32,040 nucleotides of DNA from Treponema sp. (lineage in GTDB: Bacteria; Spirochaetota; Spirochaetia; Treponematales; Breznakiellaceae), in contig JAITHW010000055.1 of assembly GCA_031279815.1 (NCBI GenBank), positions 1 to 32,040 on the forward strand. Reading direction: 5' to 3'. A model generated the notes under the pieces. It saw nothing but the letters and a program-made list of their open reading frames with translations. It made no database searches and was not told the origin of the DNA. Positions within the stretch are counted from its first letter, which is position 1, and each line of letters starts with the position of its first letter. Positions 7,200 to 27,424 of this stretch are shown piece by piece. The position numbers and the translations under genes were made by a program.

Positions 7200-8402
7200 A
7201 TGTATCAATTTAATGTTGAAAAAGCAGGTCATAGACGCCATGTGGATCATATTCTGGTGGCGAGTATTTTCTTCCTTATCGGATTAGGGATCGTGACCCT
7301 CTATTCTTCATCCTATGTATATGCGGAACGTTTCTTTGAAGACGGGCTGTATTTAATATCCCGGCAGGTCATCTTTGTAGCGGTGGGAATGGCGCTTTTT
7401 TTTATCTTTTCCCGGATTAATCTGGATATAGCCCGGAAATGGTCCCTGCCCGGACTTTTTATTGTAGGAACCGCCATTCTCTGCATCCTTCCTCTGCTTC
7501 CCGAAGTGGGGGTAACGAAGAATGGCGCCGCCCGGTGGTTTCGCATTGGTTCCGAGACCTTTCAACCGTCGGAATTGATTAAACTGGTACTGCCCTTGTA
7601 TTTGGCCCATATTTTTGATAAAAAGCGGGATCAGCTCAATTCCCTGACCACAGGTATCTTGCCTCCTTTTTTTATTACGATTATATTCATTATTTTGATT
7701 TCTCTACAGAATAATTTTTCCACCGCCGCATTCATTGCGGTAAACGCAATTTTGATATTTTATCTTGCCGGGGTGAAACGCCGTTATTTTTTAAGCGGTT
7801 TGTTTATGTTCCTGCCCTTTGCGATCTTATTGGTTCTGACTAAGGAACATCGATTTAGAAGGCTCATCAGCTACCTTAACCCTAACTGGGATCCCCACGG
7901 GGCCGGGTATCAGGTCCGGGCATCGATTATGACCATTGCATCCGGCGGTTTCTGGGGCAGGGGTATCGGTCATGGGATCCGGAAAGTGTCGAGTGTACCG
8001 GAGATCCAGTCGGATTTTATCTTTTCCGCCTTTGCCGAAGAAACCGGATTTCTCGGAGTATGCCTGTTTTTTGTGCTTTTTGGAATCTTTGTGGCCCGGG
8101 GCTACCGGGCGGCTATGCGGGCGGAAGATATCTATCGCCGGCTTTTGGCTTTCGGGCTGGTTACGGAGATCATGTCCCAGACCCTCACCAATATTGCGGT
8201 GGTTTCCGGGTCGATCCCCGCGACCGGAATCCCCCTGCCTTTTTTTTCCGCAGGGGGGTCATCGTTGCTCACCACCCTGATTGCGGTGAGCGTTATCGTA
8301 AATATTTCTCGCTCCCAAGGGAAAACGGCGTCTTTCGGCCCTTCGGAAATGAAATTCACACAACGATCGGATTCCTGGTATTCCCATGATTCTGAGGTCT
8401 AA
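7200..8402 (+). CDS. ftsW: septal peptidoglycan glycosyltransferase FtsW (SEDS family)
   Basis: This 400-residue polytopic membrane protein of the SEDS family polymerises lipid II glycan strands at the septum with a class B penicillin-binding protein. Motifs include GAARWFRIGSETFQPSELIK (about 109-128), DPHGAGYQV, IQSDFIFSAFAEETGFLG and the signature GIPLPFFSAGGSSLL near the C-terminus. Position in the division cluster favours FtsW over the elongation paralogue RodA. The best ribosome binding site (GGGGGAG at 7178-7184) ends 15 bases before the ATG, unusually far, but an in-frame stop at 7188-7190 excludes an earlier start. No ftsI partner is in the window. Its C-terminal tail after the last helix is about 35 residues and hydrophilic. 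Confidence 0.94.
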   Translation: MYQFNVEKAGHRRHVDHILVASIFFLIGLGIVTLYSSSYVYAERFFEDGLYLISRQVIFVAVGMALFFIFSRINLDIARKWSLPGLFIVGTAILCILPLLPEVGVTKNGAARWFRIGSETFQPSELIKLVLPLYLAHIFDKKRDQLNSLTTGILPPFFITIIFIILISLQNNFSTAAFIAVNAILIFYLAGVKRRYFLSGLFMFLPFAILLVLTKEHRFRRLISYLNPNWDPHGAGYQVRASIMTIASGGFWGRGIGHGIRKVSSVPEIQSDFIFSAFAEETGFLGVCLFFVLFGIFVARGYRAAMRAEDIYRRLLAFGLVTEIMSQTLTNIAVVSGSIPATGIPLPFFSAGGSSLLTTLIAVSVIVNISRSQGKTASFGPSEMKFTQRSDSWYSHDSEV

Positions 8403-8403
8403 T

Positions 8404-9249
8404 ATGTCCGATGATATTTTTAAAGAGGATCTATTAGACGGCCAAAAAATGGAAACCTCGGCATCGGGGAATTCATCAAAAATAGAGAAAGTCTTGAGAT
8501 GGGTTATCATCGTAGCCCTGATCATCTTAGGGGGAGAATTGGTTGTGATTTTGGCGGTCAATCCCTGTCTGCCCCTCTCAAAGGTGGAAGTTATGGGAAT
8601 GCCGGAACTGGACAAAGAAGCGGTGCTTGAAAAGGCGGGAATTACGGGTAAGTCTTCCTATATATCGGTGAATCCCCGGACCACAGAGAGGAGGTTGAAA
8701 ACTTTCTTGGAAGTGGAGTCCGTCAAGGTAAGCAAGCGGTTCCCCGATTCGGTACGGATAACCCTCGAAGGCCGTAAGGCGATAGCCATGTCCTTCGGCA
8801 TGATTGACGGTAAGGTATACCCTGTTTTTTTTGATAAACAAGGATTGGTTTTTATGATTGGCACTGAGGATACTAAGGCGCCGCCGCCTTTCTCCATACC
8901 TATTATATCTGGACTCATGCCGGAACAACCTTTTCTGGGTATGCGGCTTCCGGCAATGTTCAATACCCTGTTGTCGGATCTTGAGATGATACGGATATCC
9001 GCTCCGGAGCTGTTGGCGGTTATTTCGGAGATCCGGGTAAACCGGAATGTTTTTGACGGGTATGATCTGATCCTCTATCCGGTGCATAATCGGGTGAGGA
9101 TCCGTCTTGGAACGGAACTAAATGAAAATATGCTTCGGTACGTAATGTTGGTGGTGGATGTATGTGTCGCAAGGGGCGCTAAGATTGAGGAAATCGATTT
9201 CAGGACCGGTACCGCGTCATATACTATAAAGGAGGCGTCTTCTGGCTAA
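8404..9249 (+). CDS. ftsQ: cell division protein FtsQ/DivIB
   Basis: The 281-residue protein has a cytoplasmic N-terminus of about 30 residues, one transmembrane helix (about 32-52), then a POTRA-like domain (LSKVEVMGMPELDKEAVLEKAGI... about 58-125) and a beta-rich FtsQ domain. FtsQ/DivIB scaffolds the FtsL-FtsB complex and recruits later division proteins. Sequence conservation is low in this family, so the call rests on the architecture and on the position between ftsW and ftsA. ATG 8404, two bases after the ftsW stop, has GAGG at 8394-8397 six bases upstream; an in-frame ATG at 8386 has no ribosome binding site and would overlap ftsW. The end of the gene carries the ribosome binding site of ftsA and overlaps ftsA by 8 bases. 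Confidence 0.9.
   Translation: MSDDIFKEDLLDGQKMETSASGNSSKIEKVLRWVIIVALIILGGELVVILAVNPCLPLSKVEVMGMPELDKEAVLEKAGITGKSSYISVNPRTTERRLKTFLEVESVKVSKRFPDSVRITLEGRKAIAMSFGMIDGKVYPVFFDKQGLVFMIGTEDTKAPPPFSIPIISGLMPEQPFLGMRLPAMFNTLLSDLEMIRISAPELLAVISEIRVNRNVFDGYDLILYPVHNRVRIRLGTELNENMLRYVMLVVDVCVARGAKIEEIDFRTGTASYTIKEASSG
9228..9235 (+). promoter_or_regulatory. ribosome binding site that fixes the ftsA start
   Basis: AAAGGAGG at 9228-9235, inside the end of ftsQ, is a full-strength Shine-Dalgarno sequence. It stands six bases before the CTG at 9242. This codon is the only NTG codon in the ftsA frame between the upstream in-frame stop (9227-9229) and the GTG at 9299. Confidence 0.8.
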
Positions 9250-10504
9250 TGAAGGATTAGTTGTCGGCCTCGATATAGGCACGACCAAGGTCTGCGCCGT
9301 GATCGGCGAGCGTAATGAAAATGGCCTCCTGGAGATTACCGGTGTCGGGGTCAGCCCTTCCACCGGATTGCGGAAAGGGGTGGTGGTCAATATTGAAGCT
9401 ACCCTCCGGTCAGTGGCCGCCGCAGTTGAGGCTGCGGAGCGGATGAGCGGACAAGAAGTCCATGCCTGCTGGACCGGCATTGGGGGAAATCACATTGACG
9501 GGATCAATTCTCGCGGGGTCGTGGCGGTTACGGGAAAGAACCGGGAGGATATCCGGGAGATTGGACCTGATGATATAATCCGGGTGCTGGAAGCCGCCCG
9601 GGCAGTGGTGATCCCCATGGATCGTCAGGTTTTGGAGGTTATCCCTCAAAGCTATATTGTGGATGATCAGCGAAGTATTCAAGACCCCCTCAATATGATT
9701 GGGGTCCGCCTTGAAGCGGAAGTACACATCATTACCTGTTCGGTTACCAGCGCCCAAAATCTGATAAAATGTGTGAACCGGGCAGGGTTCATGGTAAATG
9801 ATCTGATCCTTCAGTCCCTGGCGGCAAGCAGGTCGGTGCTGACCCTCGACGAGAAAGAAATAGGGGTGGCTTTGATCGATCTAGGGGGCGGGACCACTGA
9901 TGTGCTGGTCTATGCCGACGGCGCTCCCTATTCCAATATCACCGTCCCCGCAGGGGGAAGTATGATTACCAGTGACATATCGAAGGTTAAGAATATTTCC
10001 TTTGAGACTGCGGAGCGGATTAAACTGGATGCAGGATGCTGCTGGGAGGGACTTTTTCGGGTGGATGATGATATTATTGTTCCGGGCGTTGGAGGGCGGC
10101 CGCCCATGCCCATTCCCCGTTCCCAACTGATGGCGATCATCAGGCCCAGAATGGAGGAGATCTTCAAAATGGTACGGGAAAAGCTGGATAAGCTCTCTCT
10201 TTCCAGGCCTTTGGGAGGAGGCATTGTCTTAACCGGCGGAGGCGCCCAGCTTCTGGGGGTTGCGGAATTAGCTTCGTATATTTTCCGGTTGCCTGTGAGG
10301 GTCGGAATCCCTCTTTCAGTGGGCGGACTAGTTGAAGAATACCGTAATCCCATGTATGCTACAGCAGTGGGTCTTGTATTGGAGGGAAACGATAGGGAAC
10401 AGAAAAACGCTCCCGAGCGGGGCGCGGAGGCTCATGTTCGGGAAAAAGGGGAACCTACGATTTTTGGAAAGTTCGTGAACTGGATTCGGACGGAGTTTTT
10501 TTAA
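9242..10504 (+). CDS. ftsA: cell division protein FtsA (apparent CTG start)
   Basis: FtsA is the actin-like ATPase that tethers FtsZ filaments to the membrane. The sequence shows the first phosphate motif VVGLDIGTTK (about residues 7-16), the second phosphate motif ALIDLGGGTTDV (about 210-221), a GGIVLTGGGAQLLG adenosine motif and a C-terminal amphipathic membrane-binding helix FGKFVNWIRTEFF at the very end. Starting at GTG 9299 would delete the first phosphate motif. The frame is closed by TAA at 9227-9229, and the only possible initiator between is CTG 9242, six bases after AAAGGAGG. This gives 420 residues, the usual length. A one-base sequence error near the out-of-frame ATG at 9249 is the alternative. 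The gene overlaps the ftsQ stop by 8 bases. Confidence 0.92.
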   Translation: MANEGLVVGLDIGTTKVCAVIGERNENGLLEITGVGVSPSTGLRKGVVVNIEATLRSVAAAVEAAERMSGQEVHACWTGIGGNHIDGINSRGVVAVTGKNREDIREIGPDDIIRVLEAARAVVIPMDRQVLEVIPQSYIVDDQRSIQDPLNMIGVRLEAEVHIITCSVTSAQNLIKCVNRAGFMVNDLILQSLAASRSVLTLDEKEIGVALIDLGGGTTDVLVYADGAPYSNITVPAGGSMITSDISKVKNISFETAERIKLDAGCCWEGLFRVDDDIIVPGVGGRPPMPIPRSQLMAIIRPRMEEIFKMVREKLDKLSLSRPLGGGIVLTGGGAQLLGVAELASYIFRLPVRVGIPLSVGGLVEEYRNPMYATAVGLVLEGNDREQKNAPERGAEAHVREKGEPTIFGKFVNWIRTEFF

Positions 10505-10567: not shown

Positions 10568-11773
10568 ATGACGTTAATGAATGTAGAAGTCCATGATGAT
10601 CAGCTTCTGGGACCCAGTCCGGCGGTAATCAAAGTTATCGGCACCGGCGGGGGAGGATGCAACGCGGTAAACCGGATGATCGCCTGCGGTCTGCAGGGGG
10701 TTGAGTTTATCGTGGTCAATACAGATGTGCAGGATCTGAACAAATGCAAAGCCAACAAAAAACTACAGATCGGCGCGAAAATTACCGGGGGCCGGGGGGC
10801 CGGGGGAAAGCCTGACATCGGAGAAAAGGCCGCTCAAGACGACCAGGAACTGATCATGGAAGTGCTCAAAGGAGCCAACATGGTCTTTGTTACCGCAGGC
10901 ATGGGCGGCGGAACCGGAACCGGTTCCGCGCCGATTATTGCCAAGGTTGCTAAAGAGTGCGGCGCGCTGACCGTGGGGGTGGTGACAAAGCCCTTTGAAT
11001 TTGAGGGCCGTTCTCGAATGCGTCAGGCTGAGGCGGGGATTGATAAACTGCGGGAAGCGGTAGACAGTCTGATCATCATCCCGAATCAGCATCTTTTCAA
11101 CATTGTAGAGCGGAAAACTCCCATGACCGAGGCCTTTCTCAAAGCGGACGACATACTCCGGCAGGGAGTACAGGGGATTTCGGATCTAGTTACTGAAACC
11201 GGGCTTATCAACATCGACTTTGCGGATGTGGAGACCATTATCAAAGGTCAAGGGGATGCTCTCATGGGTATCGGCTATGGTACCGGGGATAATCGGGCAA
11301 CCGAAGCCGCAAATAATGCGATAGATAACCCCCTCTTGGAGGGCACCGCCATTGAAGGGGCCACCCGGTTCTTGGTGAATGTGAGCGGATCCGAAGATCT
11401 GTCCTTGGTGGAATTTCAGGATGTGGTTAATATCATTACCGCAAAGGCCGATCCTGACGCGGAGATTATTTCGGGGACCAGCCTGGATCCGAGTTTGGGA
11501 GATAAACTCCGGGTAACTGTCATTGCTACAGGGTTTCAAGCGGAAGTGGTAAAAGCGGTTAAAAAAGACCCTCCCCAAGAGCTTCCCAAGAGTAATGAAA
11601 GTAATTTCATTAATTTCCGGGAATGGGATGAAATGCGGGGACAGACAAAACAGCAGACTTTTTCCCCTTCCCGAACCAGTTATCAAGATGATGATCTTGA
11701 TATTCCTACGGTAATCCGGGATCGGAAGTATAACCTCAATAAGGATATTCCTTTACAAGGAAAGGAAGCGTAA
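10568..11773 (+). CDS. ftsZ: cell division protein FtsZ
   Basis: FtsZ is the tubulin-like GTPase that forms the Z-ring. The sequence has the N-terminal [14 protein letters not shown] (about 25-38), VVNTDVQDL, the tubulin signature [12 protein letters not shown] (111-122) and the T7 region with [11 protein letters not shown]. The C-terminal peptide that binds FtsA is recognisable as [11 protein letters not shown] (about 377-387), followed by 14 further residues, so the binding peptide is not at the very end. The length is 401 residues. ATG 10568 follows GGGAGGGAG; another in-frame ATG lies at 10577 and a TTG at 10556. A TATAAT sits just upstream. The linker between the core and the C-terminal peptide is short (about 50 residues). 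Confidence 0.97.
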
Positions 11774-27352: not shown

Positions 27353-27424
27353 TCGGGCAAGTGGGATTTGAACCCACGGCCTCTTGGTCCCGAACCAAGC
27401 GCGCTACCCCTGCGCTACTGCCCG
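27353..27424 (-). tRNA. tRNA-Pro (anticodon CGG)
   Basis: Read on the minus strand from 27424, the sequence folds as a full cloverleaf: a 7-bp acceptor stem starting CGGGCAG with one G-T pair, a D-arm, an anticodon stem CTTGG/CCAAG with loop TTCGGGA (anticodon CGG, decoding CCG), a short variable loop and a T-arm GTGGG-TTCAAAT-CCCAC. The discriminator base is A at 27353. The 3' CCA is not encoded and must be added. It is convergent with the FMN-protein gene, which ends 32 bases away. Confidence 0.95.

Follow-up and report, generated by a model that had tools for sequence, protein, structure and literature searches.

At which codon does translation of ftsA, an essential gene of cell division, begin in this stretch of Treponema sp. 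DNA (32,040 nucleotides, referred to here as the window), and, if that codon is as weak as it appears to be, why has it been kept? The ftsA frame, on the forward (+) strand like all features described here unless marked (−), is closed upstream by an in-frame TAA at 9227–9229 and then reads AGG AGG CGT CTT CTG GCT AAT GAA GGA TTA GTT GTC GGC, such that CTG 9242 (9242–9244) is the only NTG codon between this TAA and GLDIGTTK (9266–9289), the N-terminal nucleotide-binding motif, known in actin-like ATPases as the phosphate-1 motif. The CTG is preceded by a U at position −1 (9241) and lies six bases after a full Shine–Dalgarno (SD) sequence, AAAGGAGG (9228–9235), the first two A of which are shared with the TAA. 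The next ATG, GTG or TTG in the frame is GTG 9299, where the mechanical list of open reading frames opens ftsA, giving a protein of 401 instead of 420 aa that lacks 19 residues and, with them, the motif. The initial annotation had described this same arrangement and had expected a gene finder to miscall the gene, and both points hold in the window sequence.

Translated from the CTG, the 420 aa protein (9242–10504) matches TIGR01174 over residues 6–380 (5.6e-136; 453.5 bits against a cutoff of 175.85), aligns with the solved FtsA chains in the PDB from residue 3–5 onward, and carries GLDIGTTK at residues 9–16. Taken together with the alignment of relatives described below, this makes CTG 9242 the near-certain start of ftsA. 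The folding of the RNA around this start is ordinary (z −0.63). We note that an ATG at the ftsQ stop (TAATG; 9249–9260, ATG AAG GAT TAG), seven bases 3′ of the CTG, opens a frame of M K D and then a stop, and that this ATG, which is out of the ftsA frame and not conserved, could trap reinitiating ribosomes. Across the window's family its middle base varies, being T 39 times and C 25 times, and this ATG thus does not seem to be under selection.

The search for FtsA covered 59 relatives, some 300 genomes belonging to the class, and genome contigs, to which further stretches were added, and it left 127 dereplicated FtsA loci once near-copies had been removed. Among these loci, which are related by descent and in which only NTG codons were taken into account when calling starts, ftsA begins with CTG in 68, TTG in 27, ATG in 20 and GTG in 12 cases, and the raw codon listings agree with these calls, including in that the non-CTG loci have TTG, GTG or ATG, and nothing else, at this site. 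The 68 CTG codons stand at the same aligned place in 59 distinct 22-nt contexts. The window's own family (probably Breznakiellaceae) accounts for 52 of them, out of 66 rows, and the other 16 make up every row of three sister families within the order (f2, f4 and f5). Family f3 (probably Treponema proper) has none, and neither do the 27 rows from families outside the order, where the aligned codon is mostly TTG or GTG. Breznakiella homolactica (L046), a complete chromosome that is 79% identical, also has CTG, as do the single-contig genomes G032 and G033. Of the 68 CTG loci, 24 have no ATG, GTG or TTG at all before the motif, and 52 lack any from codon −5 on upstream. This comparison of the ftsQ–ftsA junction, which had been suggested as a check on the proposed CTG start, gives that proposal strong backing: the same arrangement recurs in more than half of the loci, and the relatives hold neither a conserved ATG at the same place nor an extra base that would join ATG 9249 to the ftsA frame. 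On the FtsA tree, nine changes between CTG and other starts are needed. In the window's family, TTG or GTG has taken the place of CTG about five times, so that this codon is not in itself indispensable.

The nucleotides themselves show where the start lies, that it is conserved, and that it comes with an SD and an ftsQ overlap. Other placements of the start are very improbable. A start at GTG 9299, leading to a short FtsA, is extremely improbable, since GLDIGTTK, which would be removed, is conserved throughout the FtsA loci, and the aligned codon is free to vary both synonymously and nonsynonymously (GTG 27, GTT 26, GTC 24, GTA 21, and others), despite this GTG being the first canonical start codon in frame. 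The same negligible probability attaches to FtsA being a frameshift fusion with FtsQ that has no start of its own: an SD-like stretch does lie ahead of the ftsQ stop, but the C-terminus of FtsQ is periplasmic and FtsA is cytoplasmic, the spacing differs from that of the prfB frameshift site, and five loci have an intact CTG although their ftsQ stops in the SD region or ahead of it. We give only marginally more credence, and still very little, to an assembly or sequencing error in which an indel near 9251 hides a start at ATG 9249. The draft genome is fragmented (258 contigs, 80% complete) and has an out-of-frame ATG right at the ftsQ stop; however, the CTG and the same frame relation recur in dozens of independent assemblies, the ATG is missing in many relatives (AAC for AAT), and the presence of CTG in complete or single-contig genomes excludes sequencing error.

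The gene upstream, ftsQ (divIB-like; 8386–9249, with a start at ATG 8386 or ATG 8404), was named from its operon position and from relatives, with no NCBIfam match found for it. Its TAA stop (9247–9249) produces an 8-nt overlap with ftsA, in line with the overlap claimed in the initial annotation, and the codons of its C-terminal tail, TIKEASSG, include both the SD and the start codon of ftsA. Among the CTG loci, 63 of 68 show an overlap of 8 or 11 nt. Distances between −8 and +10 nt, a range that includes the overlap in the window, are considered to predict translational coupling, and −8 nt is a common coupling overlap (PMC10666635); in reporter work elsewhere, termination–reinitiation was almost lost with a gap of about 20 nt (PMC10666635). 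Within the window's family, CTG occurs in none of the five genes with an ftsQ gap of >20 nt vs 52 of the 61 others (p = 0.0002), where the five far genes, all starting with ATG or GTG, represent about three independent events. A subclade inside this CTG family (L071, L072, L073, L076 and L083) has switched to ATG starts, with ftsQ–ftsA spacings of −4 or of +24 to +36 nt, and offers a natural contrast for FtsA dose. Neither the link between CTG and the ftsQ distance nor the spread of CTG over several families figures in the initial annotation.

Outside the order (for example L085–L108), ftsA seldom begins with ATG. As in the window, the aligned start in these other spirochaete families is mostly non-AUG (TTG or GTG), but, unlike in the window, ftsQ mostly stops 1–5 nt before this start, and the SD is mostly 7–10 nt away (vs 6 nt in the window). 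Weak ftsA starts may be a general habit of spirochaetes.

Returning to the CTG loci, the sequence AGG[A/G]GG is spaced exactly 6 nt from the start in 65 of the 68, vs 2 of the 59 others, and a U at −1 is present in 60 of the 68, vs 22 of the 59 others. Tree-aware pair tests of the SD, of U(−1) and of the ftsQ distance all point in the same direction, with too few independent pairs for significance. The genome's initiator-type tRNA (L253, 1501–1573 (−)) has the anticodon CAU followed by A37, as well as G–C pairs in the anticodon stem, and we therefore suggest that pairing of A37 with the U at −1 could add one base pair beside the mismatched C; extended pairing of this kind at −1 is an older proposal. 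A special initiator tRNA was considered and rejected in view of the usual CAU anticodon, and no initiator tRNA with a CAG anticodon was found among the 30 tRNA loci examined. This initiator-type tRNA has C1 opposite U72, where Escherichia coli has C–A, and the window itself contains a tRNA-Pro (CGG) gene at 27353–27424 (−).

The evidence that CTG is kept for its own sake comes from comparing the codon with its surroundings in ftsQ. Across the 57 rows of the window's family that have no ATG, the T of the CTG, which also occupies the wobble position in the next-to-last codon of ftsQ, shows no change, an invariance that arises partly by construction because rows were called as NTG, while most other upstream ftsQ wobble sites show 11–22 changes and the two inside the SD show 1–2. 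The C of the CTG has changed five times in these rows, to T or G and never to A. The most telling comparison is one that nature provides: in five lineages (L006, L058, L061, L062 and L111) ftsQ stops 1–18 nt before the CTG, and the CTG, the SD and T(−1) are all kept, so that ftsQ coding does not explain the CTG. We note that L006, a close relative of which has a full FtsQ tail, may owe its tail loss to a recent event or to faulty assembly, and that L111 and L062 sit on long branches. Part or all of KEASSG is gone in these five lineages with the ftsA start signals intact, which suggests that FtsQ can do without this end. The full KEASSG tail is also missing from the TTG and GTG families, where ftsQ finishes before the ftsA start, and because of both absences its conservation elsewhere would be better read as a byproduct of the ftsA start signals.

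Taking these patterns into account, the CTG start has likely been kept by selection, and its conservation across several families of termite-gut and related spirochaetes looks like a deliberately weak start signal and not like an error. Two readings without selection for weakness have to be weighed against this, each of which we consider unlikely, to a similar degree. In one, CTG is the start, but its C is held only by the overlapping end of ftsQ (the KEASSG tail, with Ser codon TCT) and has no regulatory meaning. The C does fall on the second position of an ftsQ codon, the last but one, which mostly encodes Ser, and neighboring second positions in ftsQ also change rather slowly; the lineages in which ftsQ ends before a retained CTG, together with the families that lack the tail altogether, argue against this. 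In the other, the CTG was merely inherited from a common ancestor, with the SD and coupling compensating for it fully and no present selection for weakness. The strong clustering of CTG on the tree and the optimal SD speak in favor of inheritance, but unconstrained sites change many times at such divergence, published switch rates favor moves toward AUG (PMC5622118), and the family shows no point change from CTG to ATG in the context of the 8-nt overlap.

We therefore favor, as the probable explanation, a selectively kept weak CUG start that is aided by an optimal SD and by coupling to ftsQ, and that would hold FtsA synthesis low. In this mechanism, FtsA would be initiated with fMet at CUG 9242, which would be weak as its C faces U36 of the initiator anticodon, in line with the lower stability of CUG complexes compared to AUG, GUG or UUG complexes (PMC11497404). 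The eight-base SD at six bases and the U at −1 would support this weak codon, and ribosomes would arrive from ftsQ, the stop of which overlaps the start, by termination–reinitiation. Within this section of the Treponematales the CUG would be of old standing and maintained by selection, and it would most likely cap independent initiation, such that FtsA is made in small amounts coupled to ftsQ while ftsZ, downstream, is initiated at AUG. The ftsZ gene (10568–11773; TIGR00065, 4e-126) has an ATG start at 10568 with GGGAGG upstream, and ATG is likewise the ftsZ start in 41 of the 53 CTG loci scored (of the others, nine lacked a clear SD and three were doubtful calls). The earlier suggestion that weak initiation could help set the FtsA:FtsZ ratio fits both the retention of CTG and this ATG start. 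We infer selection for weakness, coupling to ftsQ and a possible effect on FtsA dose; a strong SD and coupling might nevertheless make FtsA output ordinary, and residues of the FtsQ tail could further constrain the C. More tentatively, and with somewhat more doubt than belief, the CUG could be a dedicated gate against independent initiation, with nearly all FtsA being translated by ribosomes that had finished ftsQ immediately before, and selected through several Treponematales families to hold FtsA far below FtsZ.

We see no sign of a general use of CTG starts in this lineage. In 1.6 Mb of two relatives of the CTG type there is no excess of CTG 5–8 nt after AGGAGG (59 seen, 60.7 expected), while ATG at the same distance occurs 102 times vs 42.7 expected. 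An ortholog scan of 102 gene pairs, weak in that a TTG or GTG near the start hides cases (ftsA included), produced three CTG candidates, none of them convincing: one was rejected for having an ATG at the second codon, and the other two for odd or nonprotein frames or for lying too far from the conserved start.

The initial annotation was right that CTG initiation is rare in bacteria (PMC5622118). In one survey, ancestral AUG starts had switched to CUG in 2 of 61,358 cases (PMC5622118), and a count quoted in PMC9845219 gives 20 annotated CUG-start genes in 69 genomes. Our literature search, which covered open-licence papers, found no report of a CTG/CUG start for spirochaete ftsA. A CUG start on an essential gene across several families, with natural variants in the SD, the spacing, the −1 base and the distance to the upstream stop, provides a ready system in which to ask what purpose such a start serves and what makes CUG work. 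FtsA is also open to misannotation in these genomes, as gene callers restricted to ATG, GTG and TTG drop 19 residues together with the ATP-binding motif.

Regulatory roles have already been described for rare start codons. A close likeness is infC of E. coli, which encodes IF3 and, like ftsA here, is an essential gene with a rare weak start codon; its AUU limits or regulates expression (Butler 1987, Brombach and Pon 1987, as cited in PMC9845219). The infC gene is autoregulated by IF3, whereas ftsA has CUG and overlaps an upstream gene. We know of no role of FtsA in start-codon checking. What the window adds is a conserved CUG start on an essential gene that is probably coupled. Among termination–reinitiation pairs, where overlaps of −8, −4 and −1 nt are the three commonest distances (PMC10666635), the 8-nt ftsQ–ftsA overlap is one of these three, and the dependence of CTG on a short ftsQ distance would fit coupling; such pairs normally have standard start codons, however, in contrast to the CTG of ftsA, and the coupling of ftsQ to ftsA is here a prediction. 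The gene order ftsQ–ftsA–ftsZ is common to E. coli and the window. In E. coli, ftsA is reportedly poorly translated and ftsZ well translated (as Mukherjee and Donachie are said to have found in 1990), and ftsA begins with ATG, whereas this spirochaete group would obtain low initiation of ftsA through the start codon itself.
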